The notes beneath the pieces are model-generated. The model did not search any database. It was given only the letters and a program-made list of their open reading frames with translations, and was not told the origin of the DNA. A program made the translations under genes and the position numbers. Positions 19,642-37,500 of a stretch of DNA of 40,756 nt are shown here, piece after piece; the first letter of the stretch is position 1; each line of letters starts with the position of its first letter. This DNA is from a virus. The stretch covers positions 1 to 40,756 of IMG/VR virus record IMGVR_UViG_3300044613_000335; one strand, 5' to 3'.

Positions 19642-20377
19642 AAATGAAACTTTATCTCTCGGTTGGTGCGACAATGGTATGACTGACGGTAAGTTTACCG
19701 AAGGACTTGTCTATACAACTATCATGGGTCAAGACCCTAAGCACATACAAGTACATAATGCTATCCGTGTGCAAGGTAATCAGATTGGCAGGCAAAGACA
19801 AAACTTATTTGACCTATGGGCTGACCAAGTAAAGACTGATTGGTTGCTATGGGTTGACTCAGACATTGTTCTTAATCAAGAAGTATTAAAGAAACTATGG
19901 GACACAGCAGATAAGTTAGTGCGCCCAGTAGTTACTGGTGTTTATTTTATTTCTAAAGAAAACGAACAAGCATTGATGCAACCTATGCCATGTATCTTTA
20001 ATGAAAGTGGACAAGAATTTACAATTCAATACATACATCCACTACCTGAGAACGAAGTGATTAAGGTGGATTGCGCTGGCTTAGGACTTACCCTTATGCA
20101 TAAGAGCGTGGTTCCAAGGTTAAGAGAAGTCTGCCCTGATTATTCTTTGTTTGCAGAAAAGGAAGGTTTAAACAATCAGTTTGTAAGTGAGGACATTGTT
20201 TTCTTTAGATACTTAAAGAAGGCAGGGGTTCCTGTTCATACCCATACTGGCGCTCGCGTTAAACACATGAAGCGTTTTTCTTTGGATGAGAATTATTACA
20301 AATTGTATTGGGGTTCTGTTTACGAAGCCGAAGCGAGAAAGGCAAAAGCCAATGAACAACCAAGCGAACAAGCGTAG
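19631..20377 (+). CDS. GT-A-type glycosyltransferase-like protein
   Basis: A 248-residue protein with a DxD-type motif in LLWVDSDIVL (Asp76-Ser-Asp78), as in metal-dependent nucleotide-sugar transferases, preceded by a helical Gln/Arg region (RQRQNLFDLWADQVK). Later parts include HTHTGARVKHMK. Sugar donor and acceptor are unknown. In phages such enzymes may glycosylate modified DNA bases, virion proteins or host surface glycans. Location among replication genes rather than structural genes hints at DNA or early host modification, but no base-modifying enzyme was recognised. Confidence 0.7.
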   Translation: MHSKNETLSLGWCDNGMTDGKFTEGLVYTTIMGQDPKHIQVHNAIRVQGNQIGRQRQNLFDLWADQVKTDWLLWVDSDIVLNQEVLKKLWDTADKLVRPVVTGVYFISKENEQALMQPMPCIFNESGQEFTIQYIHPLPENEVIKVDCAGLGLTLMHKSVVPRLREVCPDYSLFAEKEGLNNQFVSEDIVFFRYLKKAGVPVHTHTGARVKHMKRFSLDENYYKLYWGSVYEAEARKAKANEQPSEQA

Positions 20378-20711
20378 AGGTGCAGCCTTTGAGATTGAAC
20401 TTGCTGACTGGCTGATGACTCAGGGTTTAAACGCACAGCGTTTACCCCGCGCCGGAAGGAACGACATAGGTGATGTGTTCTTACCTACGGCAAATGATTT
20501 CTATGTAATAGAAGCCAAAGCACCTAGAAGGGATGGTCGCATTGACCTGAGTGGGTGGCTAAGGGAAGCCTACATAGAAGCCGAGAACTATCGGATAGCC
20601 AAGAAACAAGCATTAGCACCAACCCCATTGGTAATAATTAAGGCTGCCAACAAGGGTATTGGTGATGCTTATGTCGTTCAAAAGTTGAGTGATGCCCTTG
20701 CAAAACTCTGA
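20352..20711 (+). CDS. Hjc-like resolvase or PD-(D/E)XK endonuclease
   Basis: A 119-residue protein. KRRGAAFEIELADWL with Glu14, RAGRNDIGDVFL with Asp38/Asp41, and FYVIEAKAPRR with Glu54 and Lys56 reproduce the PD-(D/E)XK active site of archaeal-type Holliday junction resolvases and related endonucleases. It likely resolves recombination intermediates or trims DNA before packaging. The start was placed at ATG 20352, inside the end of the glycosyltransferase gene (26-nt overlap), because the conserved region begins there. It overlaps the primase gene by 20 nt. Confidence 0.75.
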   Translation: MNNQANKRRGAAFEIELADWLMTQGLNAQRLPRAGRNDIGDVFLPTANDFYVIEAKAPRRDGRIDLSGWLREAYIEAENYRIAKKQALAPTPLVIIKAANKGIGDAYVVQKLSDALAKL

Positions 20712-21072
20712 TAAAAAGCACGACATTGTTACTGTATTAGAACATTATGGGTTTGAAATACCTGTCCGACATGGGTGGATTACCGTGCGTTGCGCCTTCC
20801 ATGGTGATAGAGTTAAGTCAGCGCGTTTAAACATAGACAATGGTGGGTTCAGATGCTTCGGCTGCGAGATGGCTGGGGATGTGTACTCAATCATAATGAA
20901 AAAAGAAGGAGTTGCATTTCGTGAGGCTATCAAAATCGCAGAGAGAATTACTGGACTTAGCGAGTCGGAAGTACGCGGAAAACCTAAGCGAAGTGATGCC
21001 GTATCTGAGTCAGAGAGGTATCACAGAACAGACGGCGAGTATGTTCCGCCTAGGCTTCGTAAAAGAGCCTGA
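20692..21072 (+). CDS. DnaG-type primase, CHC2 zinc-finger part
   Basis: A 126-residue protein equal to the N-terminal zinc domain of DnaG primases. The ligands are visible in VRCAFHGD (Cys, His) and FRCFGCEMAGD (two Cys), followed by the conserved VYSIIMKKEGVAFREAIK segment. The domain ends near residue 90 and the remainder (SESEVRGKPKRSD onward) looks like a frame-shifted tail. It overlaps the catalytic Toprim gene by 161 nt in the +1 frame. Either the two act as separate subunits or a frameshift fuses them. ATG 20692 is preferred; a GTG lies one codon upstream. Confidence 0.8.
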   Translation: MPLQNSDKKHDIVTVLEHYGFEIPVRHGWITVRCAFHGDRVKSARLNIDNGGFRCFGCEMAGDVYSIIMKKEGVAFREAIKIAERITGLSESEVRGKPKRSDAVSESERYHRTDGEYVPPRLRKRA

Positions 21073-21535
21073 GATTGGACACGAACCATACCGTGAGAAG
21101 TTATCAATTCCTTATCTAACACCAACAGGAGTTGTGGACATCCGTTTCCGTAGTTTAAACGGAGATGGACCGAAGTATCTTTCAAGACCGGGGGCTACTA
21201 CACACATCTTTAACATTGCTGCATTGTTCCAAGAGAGTGACTGTCTAGTTGTATGTGAAGGCGAGATAGACACAATCATTGCAACACAAGCAGGCTTTAG
21301 TGCTGTTGGTTTGCCGGGGGCAAATAACTGGAAACCATTTTACGGCAGAGTATTAGCAGACTGGTCAAGGATTTTGTTATTTTGTGATGGCGATAATGCT
21401 GGTCGTGAGATGGCAAAGAATTTATCCCGTGAACTAGACAATGTATTTCCCGTGTTCATGCCTGAGGGGTGTGATGTTAATGATGTGTTCTTAAACGAGG
21501 GCGCTGACGGGCTACGAAAACGAGCAGGAGTTTAA
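20912..21535 (+). CDS. DnaG-type primase, Toprim catalytic part
   Basis: A 207-residue protein with DnaG core features: the MPYLSQRGITEQTASMFRLG segment, IRFRSLNGDGPKYLS, and the Toprim motifs VVCEGEIDTIIA and LLFCDGDNAGREMA (Glu, then DxD). It makes RNA primers on ssDNA. The frame has a TTG start at 20912 and alternative in-frame starts at 20993 (GTG) and 20996 (ATG), none with a clear ribosome site, so a frameshift from the CHC2 reading frame is plausible. The stop codon lies inside GTTTAAAC, just before the next ATG. Confidence 0.8.
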   Translation: MHFVRLSKSQRELLDLASRKYAENLSEVMPYLSQRGITEQTASMFRLGFVKEPEIGHEPYREKLSIPYLTPTGVVDIRFRSLNGDGPKYLSRPGATTHIFNIAALFQESDCLVVCEGEIDTIIATQAGFSAVGLPGANNWKPFYGRVLADWSRILLFCDGDNAGREMAKNLSRELDNVFPVFMPEGCDVNDVFLNEGADGLRKRAGV

Positions 21536-21539
21536 ACAC

Positions 21540-22295
21540 ATGATTAAAAAAGTCGTGGTACTGAGTGACTATCAAGTACCTTATCAAGATAGAAAGGCAG
21601 TTGCTCTACTCCACGATTTCATTTGGGATTACAAACCCAATGAACTATGGATAGTTGGTGACTGGATTGACCAGCCTGAACCTAGCCGTTGGTCAAGGGG
21701 TAATGCTGGTGAGTATGCAAGAACATTGCAGGCTTCCGTTAATGAAGCAACAGATTTACTAGCAGACTTACGCCACATCATGGGTCGCAGACCTATACAT
21801 TTTAAGACTGGTAATCACGACATAAGAGTTGAGAAGTATGTATCGCAGTATGCACCAGCACTACGCAGTCTTAGTAGTTTAAGCCTAGAGGAAATGCTTG
21901 ACCTTGACCGTTTAAACATTACTCTGCACCGCAAGCCCGTAGAACTAGCACCGAACTGGTTGCTTGCTCATGGTGACGAAGGTGCAATGAGTCGTATTGC
22001 TGGCGGAACCGCAATGAATTTAGCAAAACGCTTTGGCAAAAGTGTCGTCTGTGGACACACGCACCGTTTGGGTTTACAAGCGTTTACTACATCAGTTAAT
22101 GGCAGAGTGACGGAACAGTTGTATGGATTTGAGGTGGGAAACATGATGCGTTTAAACGCTGCCCACTATGTGGGTGGGTCTGCTAACTGGCAGCAAGGAT
22201 TTGGTTTGCTAACAATTAAAGACCGTCAAGTATTTCCTACTCCTGTGTATCTACACAAGGGTCAATTCATAGTAAACAACAAGCATTATGCCTGA
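21540..22295 (+). CDS. Calcineurin-like metallophosphoesterase
   Basis: A 251-residue protein with the five metal-binding blocks of the family: VVLSDYQVP (Asp10, the usual His replaced by Gln12), VGDWID (Asp41), GNHD (91-94), LLAHGDEG, and GHTHR. The Gln in block one resembles variants in phage Mre11/SbcD-like and nucleotide phosphoesterases. The substrate is unknown; DNA-end processing alongside the recombination genes is one option, nucleotide dephosphorylation another. The ATG follows the GTTTAAAC that ends the primase gene, and its end overlaps the next gene by 8 nt. Confidence 0.8.
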   Translation: MIKKVVVLSDYQVPYQDRKAVALLHDFIWDYKPNELWIVGDWIDQPEPSRWSRGNAGEYARTLQASVNEATDLLADLRHIMGRRPIHFKTGNHDIRVEKYVSQYAPALRSLSSLSLEEMLDLDRLNITLHRKPVELAPNWLLAHGDEGAMSRIAGGTAMNLAKRFGKSVVCGHTHRLGLQAFTTSVNGRVTEQLYGFEVGNMMRLNAAHYVGGSANWQQGFGLLTIKDRQVFPTPVYLHKGQFIVNNKHYA

Positions 22296-22755
22296 GTTTT
22301 TGGAACCTATCCGTCAGGTGGGCGGTGACGGCAAGCGGGAAACCGCTGCCGTTCACGCTTTATCTAGGCTCTATCCGAACTGGCGCTTCTACCCTACGCC
22401 TAGGTTTTACTTTACTGATTTTCATTTGACTTGGTTGCACGACAACGGCAGAGAGAACTATTTAGGGGACATAGAGATTAAGTGGCTATCAATAGATAGC
22501 AGTATCCCAGCAATCTTTCCTTTCAATAAGTTGCAGCAGATGCTGATTAGTCCACCATACCTAGACAACCCTGATACTTTCCACCGTATTTGTTTTAGAT
22601 TTACTGATGGCACTTTGCTGATACCAGTTAAAGAACTTGCTGGTTTGATGCCTGAGTTTAATGTTCGCCACGACACCAACGAGCGTGACCTTGTAGTGCG
22701 AGTTAATGCTATGATGTTTAAACGCTACTGGATAGATGTAGTCATAAAGGAGTAA
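22288..22755 (+). CDS. Unknown protein, possible PD-(D/E)XK fold
   Basis: A 155-residue protein. YLGDIEIKWL supplies an Asp...Glu-x-Lys pattern compatible with a PD-(D/E)XK nuclease, with helical and beta predictions around it, but no second motif confirms the family. It lies in the recombination/primase operon, overlapping the phosphoesterase by 8 nt. It may be a structure-specific or homing-type endonuclease, or an unrelated DNA-binding protein. Confidence 0.45.
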   Translation: MPEFLEPIRQVGGDGKRETAAVHALSRLYPNWRFYPTPRFYFTDFHLTWLHDNGRENYLGDIEIKWLSIDSSIPAIFPFNKLQQMLISPPYLDNPDTFHRICFRFTDGTLLIPVKELAGLMPEFNVRHDTNERDLVVRVNAMMFKRYWIDVVIKE

Positions 22756-22757
22756 GA

Positions 22758-23444
22758 GTGGAATTGCAGGATGTTGAGAAGTCCCCGCTTTGGGATACCG
22801 TTTACAAACTAGCGAGGACTGCATCTCGGTATTCAGCCAAGATAAATAAGAACGCTGTGTCTGTTGACGACATTTTCCAGCATCTAGTTTTATGGGCGCT
22901 AGAACATTGGCACAAGATTGACGAGTGGAACGAGCAAGAGTCTTTGCCGTTTAAACTACGCCGCACCTTCGCCAATGAAGCACAGAAGTTCGTGACTAAA
23001 GAGCGTGCCTATAAGTCCCGTGTATCTACTAATGATTTCTTTTACTACACGCCCGCTATCTTGCATGAATTACTACGAGATGTATGGGATTACGAAGGCT
23101 GGTTAGATGCGCCTGATTTAAGTAGTGAGTTCGTAAGTACAAGTGGTAAACCAAGCGAAGGTAATAATCGTATGGCTTTGCTATCTGATGTAGCCAACGC
23201 ATTGCATGGTTTAAACGAACAAGATAAGAACTTACTCCGGCAACGATACGCCAATGGTGGCATGGACTTTGATGTGTTGGCTGTCGTGTATGAGATGAGC
23301 GAGGAAGCCTTACGCAAGAGAGTGCATAGGGCTACCAAAAAACTACAAGATAGATTAGGTGGAGAGCCACCGATTTGGACAAACCGTAGGAGAACAGTTA
23401 AGTCCAACGCTCAGGCAAGAGCAGAAACACAGAGGCAAGAGTGA
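22758..23444 (+). CDS. Sigma-70/ECF-like regulator
   Basis: A 228-residue protein starting at GTG with an AAGGAG site. Residues 35-60 (SVDDIFQHLVLWALEHWHK) resemble sigma region 2 and residues 145-200 (ALHGLNEQDKNLLRQRYANG, then SEEALRKRVHRATKKL) resemble the region 4 helix-turn-helix. The linker is long and the C-terminus is Arg/Gln-rich. It could redirect host RNA polymerase to phage promoters or act as an anti-sigma-like decoy. It contains two GTTTAAAC copies in different codon phases (Phe-Lys and Leu-Asn). Confidence 0.6.
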   Translation: MELQDVEKSPLWDTVYKLARTASRYSAKINKNAVSVDDIFQHLVLWALEHWHKIDEWNEQESLPFKLRRTFANEAQKFVTKERAYKSRVSTNDFFYYTPAILHELLRDVWDYEGWLDAPDLSSEFVSTSGKPSEGNNRMALLSDVANALHGLNEQDKNLLRQRYANGGMDFDVLAVVYEMSEEALRKRVHRATKKLQDRLGGEPPIWTNRRRTVKSNAQARAETQRQE

Positions 23445-23638
23445 AAGATTTTGGCAGATTAACTATCAATGTAAGTTTAAACAATCGTCATGCCTTTGGA
23501 TTAGGCTTTGATTTCTACCCAGTTGTAGAATTTATAGACGGAACCAATGATGCAAGAGTGCTTGCTCGCTGTTTACATTTAGATTTTCTTGTATTCTTTA
23601 TTCACATAACTCTCTATCCGAAAGTGAGATGGCAATGA
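23441..23638 (+). CDS. Small hydrophobic protein, unknown
   Basis: A 65-residue protein starting at GTG overlapping the upstream stop (GTGA). It has aromatic beta-like segments (HAFGLGFDFYPVVEF and FLVFFIHITLYP). The C-terminal stretch is hydrophobic enough to associate with membrane. It overlaps the dNMP kinase start. No family was recognised. Confidence 0.5.
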   Translation: MKDFGRLTINVSLNNRHAFGLGFDFYPVVEFIDGTNDARVLARCLHLDFLVFFIHITLYPKVRWQ

Positions 23639-24168
23639 TAATCGGACTATCGGGCTACGCCCAATCAGGTAAAGATACAGTTGCAGAACTGTTGTGTTTA
23701 AACTATGGGTTCAAGCGCATTTCATTTGCGCTACCTATGCGTGATGCTGTCTATACATTGAACCCTTTTCTTGAAGGTGGCAATCGTGTTGCAGATTTAG
23801 TTGATGAGTATGGCTGGGATGTAGCCAAGGGTAATGCCGAAGTCCGTAGGTTGCTACAAGTATTTGGAACTGATGTTGGTCGTGAATTATTTGGTGAAAC
23901 ATTTTGGATTGACCAAGCGTTTAAACGAGCAGCCGAATACCAGCGAGTAGTATTTTCTGATGTGCGCTTTCCTAATGAAGCCAAGGCTATTCAGGATAAA
24001 GGTGGTGATGTATGGCGTATCAATCGTCATAACCACGCACCAGTTAATCATCACATCTCAGAGCATGCAATGGATAATCATTTGTTTAAACATGTAATCT
24101 ATAATGATGGAACTCTTGATGAATTAAGTGATGAAGTCTTTATGCTTGCTAAAGAACTAGGTCTATAA
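23629..24168 (+). CDS. Deoxynucleoside monophosphate kinase
   Basis: A 179-residue P-loop kinase. GYAQSGKDT (9-17) is the phosphate-binding loop typical of phage dNMP kinases (T4 gp1-like group), followed by ELLCLNYGFKRISFALPMRD and VVFSDVRFPNEAKAI, the conserved Arg/Asp region. It converts dNMPs to dNDPs to feed DNA synthesis. It is the last gene of the rightward early operon and is followed by a shared terminator. Two GTTTAAAC copies lie in the Phe-Lys phase and one in the Leu-Asn phase. Confidence 0.8.
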   Translation: MAMIIGLSGYAQSGKDTVAELLCLNYGFKRISFALPMRDAVYTLNPFLEGGNRVADLVDEYGWDVAKGNAEVRRLLQVFGTDVGRELFGETFWIDQAFKRAAEYQRVVFSDVRFPNEAKAIQDKGGDVWRINRHNHAPVNHHISEHAMDNHLFKHVIYNDGTLDELSDEVFMLAKELGL

Positions 24169-24172
24169 AAAG

Positions 24173-24212
24173 GAACAACACCCGCTGGGACTGGAACCAT
24201 TGGGTGTTGTTC
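24173..24212 (-). terminator. Terminator at convergent operon ends
   Basis: An 11-bp perfect stem, GAACAACACCC/GGGTGTTGTTC (24173-24183 and 24202-24212), separates the rightward early operon from the leftward WhiB operon. On the leftward strand the stem is followed by CCTTTTTAT, a proper U-tract. On the rightward strand there is none, so termination there should be weaker. Confidence 0.8.
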
Positions 24213-24224
24213 AGGTGTAGCGTA

Positions 24225-24572
24225 TCAGATAATAAACTTACCTGCAAGGGCTGGGTCAGACAAACCTATGCGTGCCTTTTCACGCATCACACGCCTGTCG
24301 TGTGGTCTTGTGCCAGCCCAAATCCCTTCTCGCTCATGGCATAACGCCCACTCCAAGCACATGGCTTGCACCGGACAGTTGCCACAGATGCGTTTAAACA
24401 TAGTGTGCTGCTCTGCTGTGAGTTCTGCATTTTCAGGGAAAAATAATTCCGTATCAATTCCAATGCAATTACCCTTTGCAAACTCGGTTGAGTTATACGA
24501 AAGGTAATTGTATGTAATGTCCCCAACTTGCTTAACTCCTATGACTCTGTGGTGTTGTGGTTTAAACGACAT
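24225..24572 (-). CDS. WhiB-family Fe-S transcriptional regulator
   Basis: A 115-residue protein with the WhiB signature: Cys36, then CGNCPVQAMC supplying Cys63, Cys66 and Cys72, and the GIWAG turn at 83-87 followed by a basic RPHDRRVMREKAR tail. WhiB-like proteins bind a 4Fe-4S cluster and act with the principal sigma factor. Phage copies can repress host whiB genes and alter septation or lysogeny-like states. The start overlaps the upstream stop (TGATG). This gene is the main reason to infer an actinobacterial host. Last gene of the leftward operon. Confidence 0.9.
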   Translation of the reverse strand: MSFKPQHHRVIGVKQVGDITYNYLSYNSTEFAKGNCIGIDTELFFPENAELTAEQHTMFKRICGNCPVQAMCLEWALCHEREGIWAGTRPHDRRVMREKARIGLSDPALAGKFII

Positions 24573-25081
24573 CAATACCACCGCTTGGCAAGGAAGTGTG
24601 CGTATGCTTTGCACGGGGAACCTGCGTAGCGGTGGTCAATGTAAGCAAGCCCTGCTTGGACTTGGATGAAACCGTCAGATGTTTTTTCGTATCCAACATT
24701 TTTCCATGTGGCTGGCATAAACTGTGCGATACCGTATGCGCCACTAGATTTGTTCTCTGCTTTATTTCGCCAATTACTTTCGGCAGTCCACAACGCCCAC
24801 AAACAAGACCATTGTTCTACTTGATTGCGTTGCATTAGCAGATTGATTGCATGTAATTGGTAGTCGTTAGTGTGGTAGGCAACCAACCCCACCGCTGGCT
24901 GCGGTGGCTTGGCTGATGTGGTTGCCTTGCTTGGTGATGCTGTGTATCCGATAAGTAATCCGAATACAAACGCTGTTGCTGCTACCGTCTTAACTCCACG
25001 GGTAGTCAAGGTGCTGCGTTTAAACTTACGCTTTCTCATCTGTCGCGTGGGCTTTTCTGTTTCTTTTAGTATTGGCTTCAT
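24572..25081 (-). CDS. Membrane-anchored lysozyme-like transglycosylase
   Basis: A 169-residue protein with a basic N-terminus (TRQMRKRKFKRSTLTTR), one transmembrane or signal-anchor helix at 32-49, and a C-terminal lysozyme-fold domain (residues 85-169): WSCLWALWTAESNW with a likely catalytic Glu101, then SSGAYGIAQFMPATW. This pattern matches Rpf/aggregation-promoting-factor-type cell-wall hydrolases. Its place among early genes beside WhiB suggests a role in wall remodelling during infection or exclusion, distinct from the M15 lysin. The ATG overlaps the upstream stop (ATGA); a GTG five codons upstream is less likely. Confidence 0.75.
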   Translation of the reverse strand: MKPILKETEKPTRQMRKRKFKRSTLTTRGVKTVAATAFVFGLLIGYTASPSKATTSAKPPQPAVGLVAYHTNDYQLHAINLLMQRNQVEQWSCLWALWTAESNWRNKAENKSSGAYGIAQFMPATWKNVGYEKTSDGFIQVQAGLAYIDHRYAGSPCKAYAHFLAKRWY

Positions 25082-25449
25082 GCTGATTTCTCCCACTCAT
25101 GTAGTTCTCTCGGTGTCCAAAAGTTCTCTACTGTTTCAAGCCAATGAGCAGAGATGTCTGTGTCGTAGCCTTCGCCATCATCTGTGCCAACAACAATCAT
25201 GTTGCCTTTGATGTTGTCCCAGTATGTGATGTTGCCAGCCAGTAGGCATAGCAAGGTTGCGTTATTGTTGAAGTCAAGGTCGTGTATCTTGCCTTCCTCA
25301 TTTATGTATGCAGTTGCGTTGGGCAAACGCATGATTTCAATGAGTCCGCCTACGCTCTCTTGCATTTTTTCTAGTGAGTCAAATACCCTGCGTGCGTATG
25401 TGCCATCAGGATAAAGGACAACACCCTTGGTTGCTGGATGACTACCCAT
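25078..25449 (-). CDS. DUF3846-like protein
   Basis: A 123-residue acidic protein. Segments GGLIEIMRLPNATAYINEEG and NIKGNMIVVGTDDGEGYDTD match the general DUF3846 pattern (a Gly-hydrophobic-Glu strand, then a bound-loop GN-hydrophobic-V). The family is common in phages and mobile elements and uncharacterised. The start was set at ATG 25449, which directly follows GTTTAAAC with GAAGGG upstream; an in-frame ATG at 25485 would overlap the upstream gene by 34 nt. Confidence 0.65.
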   Translation of the reverse strand: MGSHPATKGVVLYPDGTYARRVFDSLEKMQESVGGLIEIMRLPNATAYINEEGKIHDLDFNNNATLLCLLAGNITYWDNIKGNMIVVGTDDGEGYDTDISAHWLETVENFWTPRELHEWEKSA

Positions 25450-25451
25450 GT

Positions 25452-25667
25452 TTAAACCCTTCCCTTCGTATGCATCTTTGACCATTGACCTTCAACGGCT
25501 GTGTTGATTTCTGTTCTTATCGCTTTTGCCTGTGCTGCAACGATTGCGATTGCATTATCTTGCGGATGGAAGTAAGCAAGATTGCTGACTGTGCTTAGCA
25601 CTCCATCTAACTTATTAGCGGTGTCGTACCAAATCAACACGCCATTTTCAAATACTTGAACGGTCAT
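25452..25667 (-). CDS. Small protein, unknown
   Basis: A 71-residue protein with a GGAG ribosome site. It is mostly helical and has no recognised motif. The stop codon falls inside GTTTAAAC, whose last two bases precede the next ATG. It is part of a run of five small early leftward genes joined by similar stop-AC-ATG junctions. Confidence 0.5.
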   Translation of the reverse strand: MTVQVFENGVLIWYDTANKLDGVLSTVSNLAYFHPQDNAIAIVAAQAKAIRTEINTAVEGQWSKMHTKGRV

Positions 25668-25669
25668 GT

Positions 25670-26008
25670 TTACTCCAGTTCCATTGCGTTTAAACGGTCA
25701 TGTTCATCTAACATGTCCTGTATGTGGTTAACAACCCTGCCTTCGCCCTTGTCTATACATAGGGCATCTAGTTGGATTGCTAAGTTATAGCGCCCATCAT
25801 CCCCTTCTTTGGGTTGATAAGTTGGAACCCACTCAGGTTCAAGATTGTATTCAGCATGGTTCTCATCTTTAAACCACCACATTTTGTAGCCTTCTCGTTC
25901 ATCCCATAGGAGATGAACATAGTATTCCTCACCTTCGTATGTAAAGGTGATGTCCTTTGTCCATACTCGGTCAATGTGGTTGTGCTTTTGCACTTTTATT
26001 TTAGCCAT
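25670..26008 (-). CDS. Small acidic protein, unknown
   Basis: A 112-residue acidic protein, rich in Trp, Tyr, Asp and Glu (YVHLLWDEREGYKMWWFKDE). No domain was recognised. The charge and aromatic content resemble DNA-mimic inhibitors, but this is only compositional. The start directly follows GTTTAAAC that contains the upstream stop; the end junction is GAG TAA AC ATG. One internal GTTTAAAC copy reads Leu-Asn. Confidence 0.5.
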   Translation of the reverse strand: MAKIKVQKHNHIDRVWTKDITFTYEGEEYYVHLLWDEREGYKMWWFKDENHAEYNLEPEWVPTYQPKEGDDGRYNLAIQLDALCIDKGEGRVVNHIQDMLDEHDRLNAMELE

Positions 26009-26010
26009 GT

Positions 26011-26175
26011 TTAAACACCTACCTTTGCTTGGTCAAGCATAGCCAGCACCTCTTTGTATGCTTCTGCTTTGTTCTTGTGATAACTGACTGTGCCTTGCTT
26101 CCATGTTCTGCCTGCTTGTTCCATGCGTAGGTGGTAAGCAATCTTTGCAATAACTTGGTTCCTAATTTCCAGCAT
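26011..26175 (-). CDS. Small basic helical protein, unknown
   Basis: A 54-residue protein (starting MLEIRNQVIAKIAYHLRME). The start at 26175 was chosen because it follows the upstream stop TAA by two bases, the same junction used by its neighbours; a longer frame would overlap the upstream gene by 61 nt. Its stop codon lies inside GTTTAAAC. No function can be assigned. Confidence 0.5.
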   Translation of the reverse strand: MLEIRNQVIAKIAYHLRMEQAGRTWKQGTVSYHKNKAEAYKEVLAMLDQAKVGV

Positions 26176-26177
26176 GA

Positions 26178-26393
26178 TTAACTCACCGCACTTACTGTTT
26201 GCACTCGCATTTGCTGCCCACAAAAACGCACTTGCCACTCAATGGCTAGCGCCTTTGCCTGCTTTAAACTTTCTGCATAGAAAGTCTGCGGTTCCCACTC
26301 TTTCTTTGTTGCCTTGTTGTAAAGGACTAGCAGATAGGGCTTCTTGTTCTCGCCCTGTTTCCACATGCCTTCAACCTGTTCATCTGTAAACAT
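26178..26393 (-). CDS. Small protein, unknown; first gene of the second leftward operon
   Basis: A 71-residue protein with an aromatic, Lys-rich sequence (PYLLVLYNKATKKEWEPQT). It is the first gene downstream of the 26.4-26.75 kb control region, so it should be expressed from that region. No homology was recognised. Its stop is two bases before the next start. Confidence 0.5.
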   Translation of the reverse strand: MFTDEQVEGMWKQGENKKPYLLVLYNKATKKEWEPQTFYAESLKQAKALAIEWQVRFCGQQMRVQTVSAVS

Positions 26394-26700
26394 GTCCAGC
26401 CTTTCTGTTAGGTGTGTTGGTGATTACGCTGGTTAGACCTGCATCTCTCACCAACACAAGACCTATCATCTCATGCCCTATTCATGCGTAGTCAAGGACA
26501 TTTTAAAAAAATTTCATAACAATTTTGTTATTTTTGTTTAAACATTATTAGCACTCTCACTCCGGCTCTGCTAACCGACACGCGTTTAAACACTTGGCTT
26601 GTGCCATGTGCTAGACTCACTTTTGTTTGCTAAAGCAAACAAAAGCAGGGCAAATAGGACATCTGTTTAAACACTTTAGTTATCTACAATAAATTAAAAC
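26394..26700 (-). promoter_or_regulatory. AT-rich control hub with palindromes and three GTTTAAAC copies
   Basis: No gene is visible here. It contains an inverted repeat ATAACAA-TT-TTGTTAT (26516-26531), three GTTTAAAC copies (26536, 26584, 26665), a 12-bp-arm palindrome CTTTTGTTTGCT-AA-AGCAAACAAAAG (26620-26645) and A/T runs such as 26502-26513. A weak leftward -35 TTGACT (complement of 26490-26495) is present, with no good -10. The layout would suit a promoter-operator hub or a replication origin. Confidence 0.5.
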
Positions 26701-26730
26701 AAAAAAATAACCCCGCCATTTCTGACGGGG
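26700..26730 (-). terminator. Leftward terminator after the amidotransferase
   Basis: On the leftward strand, CCCCGTC pairs with GGCGGGG (26730-26724 and 26717-26711, one G-U pair) and is followed by TTATTTTTTTG. It terminates the first leftward operon just after the amidotransferase stop. Confidence 0.8.
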
Positions 26731-26748
26731 CTATCTTTGTGTCGCTGT

Positions 26749-27549
26749 TTAGTAGTTCAGCATGCTGTGTTCAGTCATGTCGTTCCACTCATCATCATCA
26801 TCAAACGCCATGTTGCGCCAATCGTAGGTGAAAGAGTTTCGGTATGGTTTAAACATCTCCCACTCCACAATCACGCCATCTTTAACTTTAAAATACTCGC
26901 CTTCGTTGGCTTCGTATGTCCAGTCAAGGCGTGTATCTAACATGGTGGCTGCATTTTCTACGGTGTCTAAGGTTGAACCGTAAACCAATGAGCCACGCTT
27001 GGTCTGACCAATCCACAATGGGGATGAGTTAACCCGTGCAAGGTGCAGCAGATTAGATGCGCCTTGTTCAATCCATGCCAGCGCTGCTGTGCCTTGGATA
27101 GTGGGCAGCAATTCGGTTGGATGCTGGGCAGATAATCCCAGCAATGCAGCCACCGCTTCTGAGTCAACCTTGCCGTTGCGTGCAACCTTCAACTGTTTAA
27201 ACAACTCCCTGTCGTTGCTGATGTGTCCGTTGTGAGTTAACACAATCTTGCCACGGGGGATGGGATGGTTGTTGTTGTTATCCTTTGGGTCGCCTTGGGT
27301 AGCCCAGCGGGTATGCAGAATTGCGGTCTGTGCATTTCGGCATAGGTCTTTGTTGTATTGCACGAACTTGGTCGCTGGGATGGCAGCCTTTAGGATTACA
27401 CGGTTGCCGTTGGCAGGGTTAATCCATGCGCTGCCCGTGGCATGTTGTCCACGGTGTTCAATGTCCAGCAGCATCTGACCTGCAAGGTCAGCAACGCTGG
27501 CGCGTTGATGTTCTTTAGGGTTAAGGCAATAGCCTGCAATTCCACACAT
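26749..27549 (-). CDS. Class II (Ntn) glutamine amidotransferase
   Basis: A 266-residue protein with GATase class II motifs: N-terminal nucleophile Cys2 (MCGIAGY), DIEHRGQHATGSAW, LHTRWATQGDP, LTHNGHISND and KVDSEAVAAL. These residues bind and hydrolyse glutamine in the GlmS/PurF family. The enzyme releases ammonia, so a partner synthase or ligase should use it; no synthase domain is fused. An amidoligase gene lies upstream in the same operon, with three small genes between. The end is acidic (DDDDEWND). A GAAAGGACTGGA leader precedes the ATG. Length fits a stand-alone amidotransferase domain with a short tail. Confidence 0.85.
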   Translation of the reverse strand: MCGIAGYCLNPKEHQRASVADLAGQMLLDIEHRGQHATGSAWINPANGNRVILKAAIPATKFVQYNKDLCRNAQTAILHTRWATQGDPKDNNNNHPIPRGKIVLTHNGHISNDRELFKQLKVARNGKVDSEAVAALLGLSAQHPTELLPTIQGTAALAWIEQGASNLLHLARVNSSPLWIGQTKRGSLVYGSTLDTVENAATMLDTRLDWTYEANEGEYFKVKDGVIVEWEMFKPYRNSFTYDWRNMAFDDDDEWNDMTEHSMLNY

Positions 27550-27556
27550 AAGTTTT

Positions 27557-27568
27557 TCCAGTCCTTTC
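27557..27568 (-). promoter_or_regulatory. Repeated ribosome-binding leader GAAAGGACTGGA
   Basis: The same 12-nt sequence as before the Cas4-like gene, here 7 nt upstream of the amidotransferase ATG. The AAAGGA core is the likely Shine-Dalgarno site. Confidence 0.6.
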
Positions 27569-27578
27569 GTAGATGTTA

Positions 27579-27764
27579 TTAGGTGAAGTTTACCACGCGA
27601 CCCGTTGTTCGTTCAAACACCTTGTTTAAACATGGGTCTAGTTGGTTTAAGTATCGGGCATCTTGTTCGGTGTATAGCCCAGCGAACTTGCGCCCGCTGG
27701 GGTCAACACCATGCACGATAAATAATGGGGCTGTCTTTGTGTCGCTGTCGCGGTGTTCACTCAT
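27579..27764 (-). CDS. Small protein, unknown
   Basis: A 61-residue protein (starting MSEHRDSDTKTAPLFIVHG) with a short beta-like core and one GTTTAAAC copy read as Leu-Asn. The start overlaps the end of the small membrane protein gene (ATGAGTGA). Nothing links it to a known family. Position inside the amidoligase operon suggests a linked function. Confidence 0.5.
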   Translation of the reverse strand: MSEHRDSDTKTAPLFIVHGVDPSGRKFAGLYTEQDARYLNQLDPCLNKVFERTTGRVVNFT

Positions 27765-27903
27765 TGTTTAAACACTCCAACATTTCTCCCCAGCAGTATC
27801 CGTTTTGTGTCCACCATAAGTTAGTTGAAATTTCAATTAAACCCATGAGCAGCAGGGCAGATACGAACCCAGCCACGAACCATCCGCGGTTAGTTAGTTT
27901 CAT
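27757..27903 (-). CDS. Small single-pass membrane protein
   Basis: A 48-residue protein with one hydrophobic helix at about residues 8-24 (WFVAGFVSALLLMGLIE) and a short Cys-containing tail (NGYCWGEMLECLNNE). The ATG directly follows a GTTTAAAC that supplies the upstream stop; a second copy lies near its own end. It may anchor a complex of the operon at the membrane, which is inference. Confidence 0.6.
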   Translation of the reverse strand: MKLTNRGWFVAGFVSALLLMGLIEISTNLWWTQNGYCWGEMLECLNNE

Positions 27904-27905
27904 GT

Positions 27906-28061
27906 TTAAACACCAGCCTTCATGCCTGCTTGGTAAATTTCAACAAGCCGTGCGGTTATTAACTTTTGGGCTTGGCTTTCGCTAGCCATTGATGCTTCAA
28001 AATAAAGTATCTGATTTGCTTGGTCGCGCAATTCAGCCATTATTTTTTTTGATAGTGCCAT
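27906..28061 (-). CDS. Small helical protein, unknown
   Basis: A 51-residue protein (starting MALSKKIMAELRDQANQIL) predicted as one or two amphipathic helices. It has a strong ribosome site inside GAAAGGACTGGA, which is directly adjacent to a GTTTAAAC copy (28077). Its stop lies in another GTTTAAAC. It begins the three-gene group between the amidoligase and amidotransferase. Confidence 0.6.
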   Translation of the reverse strand: MALSKKIMAELRDQANQILYFEASMASESQAQKLITARLVEIYQAGMKAGV

Positions 28062-28064
28062 GGT

Positions 28065-28076
28065 TCCAGTCCTTTC
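28065..28076 (-). promoter_or_regulatory. Repeated ribosome-binding leader GAAAGGACTGGA, abutting GTTTAAAC
   Basis: Third copy of the 12-nt leader, 3 nt before an ATG on the leftward strand. GTTTAAAC (28077-28084) abuts it directly, so both elements may act as one start-associated unit. Confidence 0.6.
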
Positions 28077-28111
28077 GTTTAAACGGTCAGCAGATTTTGC
28101 TAACCGTTAGT

Positions 28112-28156
28112 GGGCTGCTGGGAATTGCACCCAGTCAACGGCTAACCCGTCAGCCC
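28112..28156 (-). other. Possible three-way-junction RNA between amidoligase and the next gene
   Basis: A 45-nt segment folds as GGGCTG...CAGCCC closing two hairpins: ACGG-N5-CCGT and CTGGG-N7-CCCAG. A further hairpin (GCCCGCC-aata-GGCGGGC) spans the amidoligase stop codon. It could be an mRNA stability element, an attenuator or a small RNA. It is not a tRNA: no anticodon arm or 7-bp acceptor is present. Confidence 0.4.
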
Positions 28157-28163
28157 TGCCCGC

Positions 28164-28889
28164 CTATTGGCGGGCTGCTAGTTCCTCAGCCCTGCCGTTA
28201 AGGTAGGTTGCGGTTTTCTCGGTTAGATAACCGTTGCCAACCATGCCACGCAGCAACGCAGCAAGATTGTTTAAACGGTTATCGGATGGCAGGTCAACTG
28301 GGTCAAGCATGATGCCTGCCTTGCTGAGTTCTGCCATGGCGTTGCAAAATTCTGCCCACGCCTTGATTTTGCTGCCGTTAAGTGTGCCGTGGTGTAGTCG
28401 GATTTCAACCGTGCCGTGGCGGTCATAACTGGCTAGATTGAGTGAGTAGTAGCGACCACCGTTCAGATTGTGAACCTGACCGTTGCGAACCATCTCAGCG
28501 TTGCGCTCAGCATCTTGCAGGCTGATTGGTCGGCAGAACCCGTTGTTTAAACGGGATGGCGCAACCAGCGCTGCGATTGTGTCGTGAGCCATTGACCAGT
28601 TCACAACAAGGTTGGCAATACCGTTTAAACCGTAATGCTCAACGCCTAGGTGGACATGGTAGCCAGTTTGCTTGTTGACCGTAGCGCCAGCAGCAGCCAG
28701 CGCACGGGCAGCGGTTGTGCATTGGTTCAGGGTATCTGAACCTAGGATTGGGCTAACCGCCTCAGCAGATACGCCACGGGTTCCATCAGGCTTAACCGAC
28801 CAGTTTAAACCAGCGCGGTTGAGCAGGGTTTGAGCGCTGCCGATTGAAAGGCTGCTCATTTCTAGTTCTATGCCGTAGGTGGTAGCCAT
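28164..28889 (-). CDS. Amidoligase (Amidoligase_2 / COOH-NH2 ligase family)
   Basis: A 241-residue protein with the family motifs in order: YGIELE (5-10), AEAVSPILG (42-50), TGYHVHLG (75-82), RYYSLN (146-151), and GTVEIRLHHGTLN (159-171). These residues form the ATP-grasp-like or glutamine-synthetase-like active site described for amidoligases, which join a carboxylate to an amine with ATP. The substrate is unknown. The co-operonic glutamine amidotransferase could supply ammonia or transfer an amide group. Family members in phages have been proposed to modify cell-wall peptides or proteins. Start set at ATG 28889, two bases after the previous stop. Six GTTTAAAC sites lie within or near this gene. 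Confidence 0.8.
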   Translation of the reverse strand: MATTYGIELEMSSLSIGSAQTLLNRAGLNWSVKPDGTRGVSAEAVSPILGSDTLNQCTTAARALAAAGATVNKQTGYHVHLGVEHYGLNGIANLVVNWSMAHDTIAALVAPSRLNNGFCRPISLQDAERNAEMVRNGQVHNLNGGRYYSLNLASYDRHGTVEIRLHHGTLNGSKIKAWAEFCNAMAELSKAGIMLDPVDLPSDNRLNNLAALLRGMVGNGYLTEKTATYLNGRAEELAARQ

Positions 28890-28891
28890 GA

Positions 28892-29434
28892 TTAGCACAC
28901 CACCATTTCTGCGTTGCATGCTGGGCAGATTGGGCAGCCGTGATTGTCCACGGTTGCACGGCTAACACGGCAGATGTAGTTGTCGTTTAAACAAGCAACC
29001 TTAATCAAGCGGGTTGTTTGTTTTTTGCGGTCAGGAATTGTGATTGCAGCGTGTGGATAATCAGGCATGCGGTCAGCGATTGTCGCTGCCCATTGTGGCA
29101 GCGTTGAGCCGTTTAAACCGACACGGCTTAGGGCTGATTTGTAATCCCGACCTTGCTTGAAATCACCAGTTGCAGCAGCAACCAGCAACGGCATAACCAA
29201 CCCGATAACCGCTGATTTCTCAGCGATTGTTGGGGACACAAAAATTTCTGCATTGAACTCATCAGATGCAGCAGGTGGGATGAGTTGCGCCCCGACCTGA
29301 TTTCTTTTGCCCTGCTGGGCTGGGAACCCACAAGATAATTTCACGGCAGGTTCCTCATCTGCCATGTCTAATCTTGATGAGATTTTTGGCAACGCTGATG
29401 CTGCCAGTTTTTGCAACCATTGTTCACGGTTCAT
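28892..29434 (-). CDS. SprT-like protein lacking the HExxH metal motif
   Basis: A 180-residue protein resembling actinophage SprT-like proteins. KLSCGFPAQQ, AEIFVSPTI, SRVGLNG and YPHAAITIPDRKKQTTRLIKV occupy the expected places, and a C-terminal zinc ribbon is present (CLNDNYIC, then CPICPAC). Where the family has HExxH, this sequence reads VMPLLVAAATG (residues 80-90), and the third His position is also missing. It should therefore be catalytically inactive but may still bind DNA or a partner. It is the first gene of the leftward operon, so it is probably made early and in quantity. Confidence 0.7.
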   Translation of the reverse strand: MNREQWLQKLAASALPKISSRLDMADEEPAVKLSCGFPAQQGKRNQVGAQLIPPAASDEFNAEIFVSPTIAEKSAVIGLVMPLLVAAATGDFKQGRDYKSALSRVGLNGSTLPQWAATIADRMPDYPHAAITIPDRKKQTTRLIKVACLNDNYICRVSRATVDNHGCPICPACNAEMVVC

Positions 29435-29488
29435 TTGTTTTGCCTTTCCAGTCTGAGGCTTAAACCCAGTTGTTTAAACCACTATCCG

Positions 29489-29518
29489 ATTATAGGCACA
29501 CAATTTTTGAAAGGTCAA
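29489..29518 (-). promoter_or_regulatory. Sigma-70-like leftward promoter
   Basis: On the leftward strand, TTGACC (29518-29513), an 18-nt spacer and TATAAT (29494-29489) make a near-consensus promoter. The predicted start falls near 29482, and GTTTAAAC (29472-29479) lies immediately downstream, in an operator-like position. It drives the SprT-like/amidoligase/amidotransferase operon. Confidence 0.75.
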
Positions 29519-29626
29519 CACCATTTCGCAAAAAACTTTAAATTTTTTTTTGAGACAAAACATCTCACTATTTGAGATGCCATTGCCTGCGGTTCCTGAG
29601 CCTGCCTTGCTGCCCGATTGCCAGCG

Positions 29627-29656
29627 CCTGCCCTGCCCTGCCCTGCCTGCCCTGCC
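29627..29656 (+). repeat. CCTGC tandem repeat
   Basis: An array of CCTGC and CCTGCC units lies in the noncoding C-rich island upstream of the leftward promoter. Related CCTGC, GCCAGC and GCTGC words extend over about 150 bp. Such tracts can bind replication or recombination proteins, but none is known for this one. Confidence 0.6.
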
Positions 29657-29750
29657 TTGTTGTGTGCAGCGTGTTAGTAGCAGCCAGCCCGCGTGCCAGC
29701 GCTGCTGCACACCTAGCGCTGCCAGCCCGCTGCGTGTGCCGTGTCGCTGC

Positions 29751-30111
29751 GTTTAAACGATAAGTGATTGAGTGCGGGGTCATTTGACCCCAGCATTGTT
29801 AAAATCGCTGCGTGTGTGTATGTGTGTATCCACACACATAACTTTGCTAGCCCTGAAAAACCGGGGCTGACCAGCACTTTTGCCCCATTTGGGGGCAATT
29901 ACGCTGCCTACGGAAAAAAAGTTTAAACATTTGTGTCCAATTACATGCCATTGGACACCTATTAGTAAGTGAAAGGCGTAATCTATGCAGCCTTTCACGC
30001 GTAAGCAGGAAACCCCAGTAGGGTTTCCCTAGGCATACCCCTAACCTACGGCTTACGCCTTCGGTTAGGTATGTGAGTTCTTAGCCCAAGACTCACCACA
30101 ATCGGTCTTGG
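29751..30111 (+). promoter_or_regulatory. Run of about nine inverted repeats before the terminase gene
   Basis: Perfect or nearly perfect stems occur back to back: GGGGTCA/TGACCCC (29776-29791), TATGTGTGT/ACACACATA (29819-29840), AGCCC/GGGCT (29849-29868), TTGCCCC/GGGGCAA (29880-29898), GTGTCCAAT/ATTGGACAC (29933-29958), GTGAAAGGC/GCCTTTCAC (29969-29998), GGAAACCC/GGGTTTCC (30008-30028), CCTAACC/GGTTAGG with an inner GGC/GCC (30040-30069), and CCAAGAC/GTCTTGG (30086-30111). GTTTAAAC copies at 29751 and 29921 are within or at the border. It could be a structured leader RNA, a packaging site or an origin. Confidence 0.65.
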
Positions 30112-34096: not shown

Positions 34097-34570
34097 ATGG
34101 CAGACCAGCGCGGTGGATACAGGAAACCGACCAACCCTGCACCAGTTTCAGGACCCGGTGCGCTCTCTCAAAGAACGGATGGACAACCTGCGCGATACGC
34201 AGCAGGCATGGCTTATGGTGAGGGACAAGATTTCTATGAACTTCAAACCCAAGCACCCATGAGTAATGGACAGTCCGCCCCTGCATCTTTACCATTAAAT
34301 CAAGGTTCTGCCTTAGCAGGTTATGCTAAACCAGTTACACCTTTAGACCAACCAACTCAATACCCTGAGGAACCAGTTACTACTGGTATCCCATCAGGTG
34401 CTGGTGCAGGTCCGGAAGTATTAACTTCCCCAGCAATGATTGCTGCTCAGAACTCTGAGGATGTTGCAAGACTTATGGCTGTGTTGCCAGTCTATGCACG
34501 CATTGCTGAGTCACCAAACGCATCAAACGCTATGCGTAACTTCTATCGCTATTTACGGAGTCAAGTTTAA
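34097..34570 (+). CDS. Phage protein of the portal region, function unknown
   Basis: A 157-residue protein beginning MADQRGGYRKPTNPAPVSGPG, with Gly/Pro/Gln/Ala-rich central sequence and a helical C-terminus (EDVARLMAVLPVYARIAESP). Its opening pattern is common in small proteins next to portals of aquatic and actinobacterial phages. It overlaps the giant protein's start by one base. It might be a chaperone or internal head component. Confidence 0.65.
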   Translation: MADQRGGYRKPTNPAPVSGPGALSQRTDGQPARYAAGMAYGEGQDFYELQTQAPMSNGQSAPASLPLNQGSALAGYAKPVTPLDQPTQYPEEPVTTGIPSGAGAGPEVLTSPAMIAAQNSEDVARLMAVLPVYARIAESPNASNAMRNFYRYLRSQV

Positions 34571-37500
34571 TGGCTTGGTATAACCGTATTGGCGACATTG
34601 CCAAAGGCGTTGTTAATTTTACAGGCATACCGGGCTTAGTTCACGACATTGCTACATCAGGGTCAAATGATGACCCATGGTATGTAGATGCCGTTAATGT
34701 TGCCAAAGGTGTTGTTAAAGTCGGAACTACGCCAGTTCGTGGTGCAGTTAAGGGACTCTTTGCGCTTGGCGAAGCATCTTATGAATTAGGTGGTCAAGCC
34801 CGTGAAGCAGTTGTACAAAAAGGACTTGAACTTCCTTTTATGTATAACCGATACAAAAATCCCGGTGAAACATACGAACAATACCAACAGCGCGTAGCCG
34901 AAAACAAAGATGAAATTTCTATGGGTCAAGTTGCCCTATCTTTGTTTGGTCAGGGCAAGAACGCAGCAGAAAACTCAGGTTGGTTCCATGATTTTACTGA
35001 CCGTAATTTAAAATTTTTAGCAGCAGGATTTGATTTATTTAATCCTGAGGACAGAGAAGCAGCATTTAACGACCAGTTCATTGGTAAGTTTGCTAGCGGT
35101 TCTGTTGACTTTACTTCATCTATGACTATTGACCCATTGTTCTTTGCTGGGTTTGCAGGTAAAGGTTTAACTATTGCAGCCCGTGCGCCAATGGTAACCG
35201 CACTAGAAGGTGCAGGCAGAACAGGTGTTGCAGCACTTCCGGGTTCTTTAACTCGTAAAGTTTTTGGTAATTTTGCAATGACTAAAGAAGGCATGGATGA
35301 CCTATTAGGTCGTGCGCTTCAAGGCGAAGGTCGTGCAGTTGAGGACATTAAGTTCCTTGCACAAACTGATGCTAAAGGTCAGTATGGATACTGGTCTAAA
35401 AAGCGTGTTACACATCCTGACGCTATGGCTTATTTATTTGGTCGTGCAACTACTGACCAAGAAGTTGTTGATACCTTCCGTGCAGTAATGGGATTAGACA
35501 AGCAAGCAATGGCATCAATCGCAAAGGTTGATGATGAAGCAGCACTTGTTCTTGATAATCTAACAGATGTCCCAAAGCCTTATCGTGAAGCACTAAACGG
35601 ACAACTTGATGGTGATTTAATTGTTAACCCTGAATACAACCGTGCAGTTGGAACTTATTTAGATACTCTTGTTAAAGAGGATGACCGTTTCCGTATTGCA
35701 CTAGAAAAAGTTTCTACTGGTGGTAATGAGTTCCGTGGTGGAACTTTTGCCCGTGGACCACTTTCAGGTTATGCAAGAAAGCAAGCAGAGAAGTTAGCAA
35801 AGACTTTTGCTGACCCTGAAATTACAATGATACAAAAGACAAGCCTTCATCCAGCCGTTATGGTTGTTAATTACATGAAGGGCAAATCAGAATTTTTTAC
35901 TAAGTTTCGCCCAAGCGGTGTATTCCAAGTCAATGATGCTGACTCCTATGTGGAGATGAACGCATTTTTGCGTGAAGCCGTTGAACTATCAGGTGGAACA
36001 TTTGCAACTAAGGCTGGCGTTTATGCTGACCAGTATCTTGCAGCAGCCACCGAAGGTGAGCGTTTAAACATTATTAAGTTGGCAGAAAAAGATGCTTTGG
36101 GAATTATTGCCCCAAACATGAGCCAACAGCAGATTGAAAAACTTTATGCAATTTTTGATTACCGCCGTGCTAAGACATTAAAAGAACACAAAGACCGTGG
36201 CTTCTTGTCTATCTTTACAGAGAACGGTCCAGTAATTGCTAAGTTTCCACAGTTAGAGCGTGAGTCTGCAAACATTGTTATTGCAATGGACTTACGCCGA
36301 CTAAAGAACGGTATTGACTCATACGAAAGAGTGCTACCAAGCATCCTTTCAGGTATTGACCCAACGGAAATTGCCGTTCGTGGACAAAAGTTTATGAACA
36401 CCCTTGATAATGTTAACGACATTTTCAAGACATCTGTTCTTATGCGCTTAGGTTATACAGTTCGTAACCTTACAGAAGCACAACTATCTATGATGGCTAA
36501 GGCTTTTGCTCTACCATCCGCTGCTGCGGTTGGTGGACCTGAGGCTGTAAAGAGATTTTTAAACAATCGTAAGGCAGGATTTACTCGCCTTATTGATAAT
36601 GTTGAAGTTTTAGCAGGTCGTAAAGACGACATCAATGTTTTGCGTAATGAAGTTGCAAAACTTCAAGACATGCTTCGTGGTCTTGACCTTTCTCGTAAGG
36701 GTCTTGCAGGAGAAATCCGTACACGCATGGCAGACATTGAGCGTGGTGGCGAGCGCCTAATTGCTAATTACATTGCTGCTGAAAAGGCTAAAGGCAATCT
36801 AGTTGGTGTTGAGGAAGCAGCAGCGATTGTGCTACCTAAAGAACTTACAAGACTTCGTTCAGCCTTGGCAGAAGCAGAAGCAGTTACTTTGTATCATGGT
36901 TCAGCAGCAGATGAGTTTGCTTTTGACCCAACAAGACCGTTATCTGCTACACCATCAGCAGGAATTGCTGACCGTTATGCATCACAAGAATTTACTTTTG
37001 GGCTAGAACGCTACATCTCAGAAACTGGTCGCCCAGTTCCACTAAGAGTTGTAACTCGTAAAGGTCCACAGCGCCATCCGCAGTCAACATTTACCGCTGG
37101 ATACCGTGGCGCACACACAGCACCTGACCGCGAATTTGGTGCATCACTAGATAACATGGCTCGGATTTACCCTGAGGATGTTTATTCTCCTGATGCTGTT
37201 CGTATTTACGGTGTTGGTGGTCCTGATTGGCGTAACCTTGATAAAAAGGTTGCAGCACTTATTCAAGATTTTAAGGGTAATCCAAATCGTACAATTACGA
37301 TTTATCGTGCAGTACCAAAGGATGCACCCGCTGGCATCAATGTTGGTGACTGGGTAACACCACTTCGTGAATACGCTGACCTTCATGGTAAGGGTCGTTT
37401 TGGTGATGAGGCTTTTCGCATTGACGAAATGAAAGTCCGTGCAGGCGACATTTTTACTGATGGTAACTCTTGGTTTGAGTGGGGTTATGACCCACGCCCT

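Follow-up and report, generated by a model that had tools for sequence, protein, structure and literature searches.

What does a phage make with an amidoligase and a free-standing class II glutamine amidotransferase (GAT) encoded in the same operon? The question is raised by positions 26,749 to 29,434 of IMG/VR record IMGVR_UViG_3300044613_000335, the whole of which (40,756 bp) was analysed and is called the window below. The record belongs to a tailed phage, with genes for a terminase, a portal and a major head protein, and the host is probably an actinobacterium, because the genome carries WhiB genes and Arthrobacter/Microbacterium-type neighbours. Iyer et al. reported the joint occurrence of amidoligase and amidotransferase in phages in 2009, and a modification of the wall against superinfection was proposed for phiEco32, as recounted in PMC10580990. 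A first-pass annotation of the window had likewise suggested a system that modifies peptides or the cell wall. We find that the two genes lie in a single conserved transcription unit and that their pairing is more than chance. The unit may be a two-subunit, glutamine-dependent amidating system, whose likeliest substrate would be a carboxylate on a peptide of the host envelope or of an envelope precursor; we give this reading a probability of about 0.45.

The transcription unit and its limits

Read leftward from 29434, the operon encodes a SprT-derived protein and the amidoligase, followed by about 100 nt of non-coding DNA, open reading frames (ORFs) of 51, 48 and 61 amino acids (aa), and the GAT. 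The two enzymes and the signals that flank the unit are:

28164..28889, minus strand: Amidoligase_2 enzyme, 241 aa, assigned by Pfam, PHROG and a fold model; GIELE, GYHVHLG and TVEIRLHHGTLN are invariant or nearly so
26749..27549, minus strand: stand-alone class II GAT, 266 aa, with Cys2, R81, N107-G108 and D129 and no synthetase domain
26703..26738, minus strand: intrinsic terminator directly 3' of the GAT, kept in all relatives tested
29489..29518, minus strand: sigma70-like promoter, TTGACC-18-TATAAT, agreeing with the consensus at 11 of 12 positions

With one scoring scheme, a terminator was found at most 100 nt from the GAT stop in 31/31 relatives, and the same scoring gave none after the SprT-like gene (0/32), the amidoligase (0/32), the SLT gene (0/29) or the DUF3846 gene (0/28). 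This position directly after the GAT makes 29434 to 26749 on the minus strand a real, single transcription unit, compact and conserved, in agreement with the one leftward operon of the first-pass annotation. The SLT and WhiB genes, considered as further members, were set aside, since the terminator separates both from the GAT. The strong promoter that had been taken to imply early, high expression did not stand up to comparison: it is a consensus match present in the window and its close relatives (L003 and L005) and absent from distant ones. A phage sigma factor-like protein (PHROG_354) is encoded at 22758-23444 and may read non-sigma70 promoters, which possibly limits the promoter scan. A nucleotide search of the operon region against the phage collection returned no match. 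Every gene tested between the window and its close relatives has a ratio of nonsynonymous to synonymous substitution (dN/dS) well below 1.

The two enzymes

Profile searches bear out both of the enzyme assignments that had been made from the letters. The amidoligase ORF (28164-28919) matches Pfam Amidoligase_2 (PF12224) with E=1e-24 and 88 bits, against a cut-off of 22, and PHROG_2443 with E=3e-29. Alignment with relatives places its likely start at the ATG at 28889, just past the stop of the upstream gene, and not at 28919. Because a PDB sequence search with the amidoligase profile gave no match, we compared folds. The AF2 model (pLDDT 90.5) matches YbdK (Z about 15), glutamine synthetases (13.6) and Dop (12.5); its fold is predicted to be of the glutamine synthetase (GS)/GCS type, nearest to YbdK/GCS, that is, an ATP-dependent, carboxylate-activating ligase fold. 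The ExE, HxH and ExR motifs are intact, the catalytic residues are invariant across the lineage, and dN/dS values of 0.11-0.25 against close relatives show purifying selection. Two amidoligase types, at least 51% different from each other, occupy the same locus in phages whose terminases are mostly about 80% identical or more.

A profile scan of genomes for a cellular source of the amidoligase found only three weak relatives, so there is no informative bacterial neighbourhood for it. A BFVD match to a protein of Mycobacterium phage Tesla, named glutamine amidotransferase, had suggested a fused amidoligase-GAT protein. This was not borne out, and the name looks like a misannotation, because gp105 of mycobacteriophage Marvin, alike in size and annotation, is an amidoligase with no GAT match.

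The GAT matches Pfam GATase_6 (E=3e-19, 69.7 bits, cut-off 27) and PHROG_14519, 'glutamine amidotransferase' (E=4e-52). In class II enzymes C2 is the N-terminal nucleophile, and R, N-G and D have their roles in catalysis; the corresponding residues (C2, R81, N107, G108 and D129) are invariant in 22 sequences, and dN/dS against close relatives is 0.08-0.18, again indicating purifying selection. The GAT model (pLDDT 71.7) is less certain than that of the amidoligase. It matches the glutaminase domains of GlmS (Z 19.7) and PurF (19.5), then AsnB (16.6) and EgtC (16.0), and the protein carries the GlmS-type loop HTRWATxG. It is nevertheless none of GlmS, PurF or AsnB, with 60.3 bits against a family cut-off of 418, 42.9 against 350 and 32.8 against 267, respectively. 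The chain stops after the glutaminase domain, with no synthetase or acceptor domain, and a GlmS/PurF-type glutaminase domain of this kind needs a partner.

Conservation of the pair

At 64 of the 76 IMG/VR GAT loci an amidoligase lies upstream on the same strand, and the remaining 12 have only 53-1158 bp upstream of the GAT ORF; every relative whose flanking sequence is long enough thus preserves the pair. We also searched the whole records of 15 phages from other groups with a GAT-II match, hand-picked across the match list and thus a sample rather than a census; in 14 of them Amidoligase_2 lies no more than about 3.4 kb from the GAT, the amidoligase annotation of two having been noticed only when the records were opened. 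The sole record without it holds a genuine glmS beside glmU, on a contig labelled as phage. CAKLQH020000008.1, labelled Acinetobacter phage MD-2021a, carries glmU-glmS and looks bacterial. Amidoligase_2 was found in 0/14 control cellular genomes.

The converse does not hold, as an amidoligase is present without any GATase_6 match in the phages Geobacillus GR1, Bacillus 031MP004 and Porphyromonas 018a. The dependence is therefore one-way, of GAT on amidoligase, which fits a GAT that needs the amidoligase as acceptor. In two other phages the amidoligase stop overlaps the GAT start. Distances between amidoligases correlate with those between GATs at r=0.80, compared with r=0.26 for amidoligase and terminase.

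The first-pass annotation was right to link phage amidoligases with amidotransferases, and relatives, which might never have carried both genes, almost always do. It erred in regarding a joint product as new for this host group, as the pair is adjacent in at least 14 Arthrobacter phage records and in Marvin; OM43, LUZ24-like and Zobellviridae phages also have it. The pair is thus already known from other phages, with published examples from LUZ24-like phages (PMC3890496), OM43 phages and Marvin (PMC10580990), and Arthrobacter cluster AL (PMC5513430). Such linkage across many unrelated phage groups makes it highly improbable that two independent genes travel together by chance, with the GAT acting as a plain glutaminase that changes nitrogen metabolism, even if the genes between amidoligase and GAT vary and the two are known as neighbouring genes only.

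A possible amidating mechanism

We propose ammonia transfer between the two proteins because it is the simplest use of a glutaminase without an acceptor domain together with an ATP-dependent, carboxylate-activating fold, and we infer from this a chemical coupling of GAT and amidoligase. The GAT-II subunit would hydrolyse glutamine through its N-terminal cysteine and release ammonia; the amidoligase would spend ATP on turning a carboxylate into an acyl phosphate and link the ammonia to this activated group, forming an amide. This mode would be like that of MurT-GatD, which amidates peptidoglycan. There the ligase, MurT, is of the Mur ligase type and the glutaminase, GatD, belongs to the class I amidotransferases, with folds unrelated to those of the window's enzymes. 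The likeness extends to gene organization, MurT-GatD having separate ligase and glutaminase genes in one operon according to PMC3267633. As for the substrate, our guess is a carboxyl group on a peptide that belongs to the host envelope or to one of its precursors, perhaps modified early in infection, and the benefit to the phage could be a superinfection block or an adjusted lysin sensitivity. The recurring membrane peptide and the published superinfection proposal weakly favour the envelope as target.

Several points weigh against this amidating system. The literature searched contains no biochemistry for the amidoligase/GAT family, and GAT-II folds also serve as gamma-glutamyl hydrolases, for example in EgtC. 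No direct link ties the pair to the wall; the genes for the lytic transglycosylase and WhiB are on the far side of the terminator. Moreover, GAT distances also track those of the neighbouring dNMP kinase (r=0.73), so part of the amidoligase-GAT correlation is shared regional history.

Should the product prove to be an amide in the wall or in a peptide, the way in which some phages alter the surface of their host during infection would be explained. Pairs of amidoligase and amidotransferase are widespread among phages, and their function has remained undemonstrated since the 2009 description. The present lineage may have the smallest version, made up of two enzymes (241 and 266 residues), a handful of micropeptides and a single terminator, no further ligase having been found, and this small set of parts makes reconstitution practical.

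Comparison with known systems

The modules of phiEco32, LUZ24/PaP3 and Zobellviridae phages resemble that of the window in encoding Amidoligase_2 and a class II GAT at a short distance from each other on the same strand. They differ in their longer GATs (open frames of about 400-690 aa, compared with 266 aa) and in carrying a COOH-NH2 ligase, an ATP-grasp protein and often a gamma-glutamyl cyclotransferase, for which the window lineage has no matches. The search for these three covered the window and five relatives of about 40 kb, whose records may be incomplete, and the RimK profile used for ATP-grasp scored under its cut-off even in positive phages. The larger set of LUZ24-like and related phages resembles a pathway, which would suit the synthesis of a small molecule, a metabolite with an amide or a glutamyl group that acts on host metabolism or against a defence. 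The lack of COOH-NH2 ligase, cyclotransferase and RimK-type ATP-grasp matches in the window lineage, and of any PADLOC match to a known defence system, leaves that role decidedly unlikely here.

Closer parallels come from actinobacterial hosts. Arthrobacter phages Laroye, Edmundo, Ottawa and their relatives have the adjacent pair, with a GAT about 39-41% identical to that of the window; unlike the window, they have an extra gamma-glutamyl cyclotransferase, they lack a ribbon protein immediately upstream, and the RNA model described below does not match them. In Marvin, also an actinobacteriophage, gp105 and gp106 are an adjacent amidoligase and GAT-II as here, both very divergent.

In ergothioneine biosynthesis, EgtA and EgtC combine a GCS-type ligase and a GAT-II-fold enzyme in one pathway, and both folds are like those found here. 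This suggests the main rival to an amidating system, a gamma-glutamyl cycle. In it the amidoligase would put a glutamyl group on an amine, and the GAT-fold enzyme, acting as a gamma-glutamyl amidase, would take that group off again afterwards; the gamma-glutamyl cyclotransferase of relatives would perform a similar removal. The nearness of the amidoligase fold to YbdK/GCS and the presence of EgtC among the GAT fold matches agree with such a cycle, as does the cyclotransferase near the GAT-less amidoligases of Geobacillus GR1 and Bacillus 031MP004. However, in both sequence and loop the GAT is closer to GlmS than to EgtC, and its weak match to the EgtC family (TIGR03442), at 29.3 bits, is far under the cut-off of 218.65, so membership was rejected. 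Arthrobacter phages, in addition, hold cyclotransferase and GAT together, which means that the two are not simple substitutes. On balance we consider the cycle unlikely.

The SprT-derived protein and the micropeptides

The unit has four further protein-coding members:

28892..29434, minus strand: SprT-derived protein, 180 aa, without HExxH and with a C-terminal Cys ribbon, KQTTRLIKVxC...GxPICPxC
27906..28061, minus strand: 51-aa ORF, weak, restricted to the closest relatives (3 loci, counting that of the window)
27757..27903, minus strand: 48-aa single-pass transmembrane peptide with one strong hydrophobic segment, dN/dS 0.07-0.10
27579..27764, minus strand: 61-aa protein, in a slot that holds a Cys-rich peptide (CGDCLRPxCxGC) in many relatives

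The SprT-like label given to the first of these is correct by descent, as the protein is homologous over its full length to Arthrobacter and Microbacterium phage proteins that bear the annotation 'SprT-like protease', and incorrect as to activity. A protease role was rejected because the HExxH zinc site is lost: the motif is missing from the window protein and from the ORFs of all 72 relatives, and is kept as HELVH in gp49 of Arthrobacter phage Maureen. In a sister clade the protein is reduced to the ribbon, KQTTRLRKVxC..DxYIARISRST...GxPICPxC, of about 45-60 aa and always just upstream of the amidoligase.

The 48-aa ORF matches the membrane peptide noticed from the sequence at the outset. Between amidoligase and GAT, a tiny single-pass membrane peptide occurs at 31/43 loci by a strict hydrophobicity cut, the others falling narrowly below it, and many loci have a Cys-rich peptide just before the GAT. 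Some CLN and MFK peptide motifs are not a sign of protein conservation, since they are encoded by a repeated DNA word, GTTTAAAC.

The retention, in the sister clade, of the ribbon as the only SprT part directly upstream of the amidoligase raises the possibility of protein or peptide tagging, in which the amidoligase would join an amino acid or peptide to a protein, with the Cys-ribbon and Cys-rich micropeptides as adaptors or substrate. Marvin agrees with this in that gp105 (amidoligase) and gp106 (GAT) contain Cys-rich segments within their own chains, whereas the window has separate small proteins. The GS fold is also common to PafA and Dop; this similarity is, however, shared by many enzymes, Dop is not the best match of the amidoligase, and the micropeptides of different clades have no C-terminal motif in common. 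Tagging is in our view quite unlikely.

A tRNA-like structured RNA

The non-coding stretch between the amidoligase and the 51-aa ORF contains:

28062..28166, minus strand: structured RNA region after the amidoligase stop, with conserved fold and covariation
28108-28159, minus strand: tRNA-like element, with an acceptor-like stem, a small hairpin and a T-arm with loop UGCAAUU; a second hairpin follows

The fold is kept in all relatives inspected, with the acceptor-like stem, the small hairpin (missing in one clade) and a T-arm loop of UGCAAUC or similar; the second hairpin, after the T-arm, is variable in sequence. In an alignment of 38 sequences, 98.4% of cells pair and 10 of the 12 pairs show two-sided changes. 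None of 500 shuffles equalled the alignment in pairing, in covariation score or in the count of two-sided changes, a control that overstates significance for related sequences, and shifting the partner by 1-3 columns lowered pairing to 34-58%. A second alignment, of 33 sequences, agrees. The number of independent pair types would be hard to explain without a conserved structure.

A covariance model finds one copy per genome in the lineage; one record has two copies near its two ends, with the amidoligase, as a terminal repeat would give. The model had no match in the amidoligase phages of Arthrobacter, PaP3 or Marvin. A pattern scan of all IMG/VR contigs returned 65 stretches, 59 of which start 13-17 nt past an amidoligase ORF. 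The other six (L126, L129, L136, L147, L150 and L166) follow the stop of another gene in other phages. One of these lies in a record that is unrelated in other respects, with a very divergent amidoligase, a GAT, WhiB and SLT within the 5 kb downstream of it; the other five, all in fragments, follow a gene in an apparent structural region, and no amidoligase was found in the four fragments searched. The RNA is therefore linked, not exclusive, to the amidoligase.

ARAGORN made no tRNA call for the element, and no Rfam family reached threshold, the best being Tymo_tRNA-like (17.9 bits, threshold 40) and mascRNA-menRNA (17.9, threshold 42.5). No relevant paper emerged from a literature search for an intergenic motif of tRNA-like form in phages. 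The micropeptides and the RNA of this operon are not described in the databases searched, and the RNA adds a covariation-supported structure outside the Rfam families at threshold. Our guess is that it may act in processing or stability, as an element of the type that RNase P takes as substrate. It would be a long shot that the enzymes act on or through a conserved micropeptide (Cys ribbon, transmembrane or Cys-rich) and that the RNA, rather than being a mere mRNA spacer, is a working part, for instance as cofactor, sensor or processing signal connected with the amide chemistry.

Other features of the window

Beyond the terminator, at 24225-25096, a WhiB regulator gene overlaps that of the SLT transglycosylase, which has a hydrophobic N-terminal segment and an aggregation-promoting-factor C-terminal domain. 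This adjacency is conserved across relatives and also occurs in an unrelated phage with amidoligase and GAT (L186). Elsewhere, a glycosyltransferase family 2-like gene lies amid the replication genes at 19631-20377 (PHROG_34859 moron; Pfam Glyco_tranf_2_3) and could modify DNA or the envelope. An HslV/proteasome-like Ntn hydrolase is encoded among the structural genes at 6126-6689, just downstream of the major head protein. A 2058-aa protein at 34570-40746 has no Pfam match; PHROG_10618 matches at its C-terminus and a ParB C-terminal domain in its middle.

The word GTTTAAAC is a palindrome with 56 exact copies in the window, compared with 1.4 expected and a frequency reached in 0/100 shuffles. 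The copies span 1629-39631, are densest at 20000-30000, and lie mostly in the early/replication region, coding sequence included, with no conserved flanks. The excess is common to most relatives, and in one subclade (L050-L053 and L057-L061) the word is replaced by GTTTAGAC, as if a binding specificity had changed.

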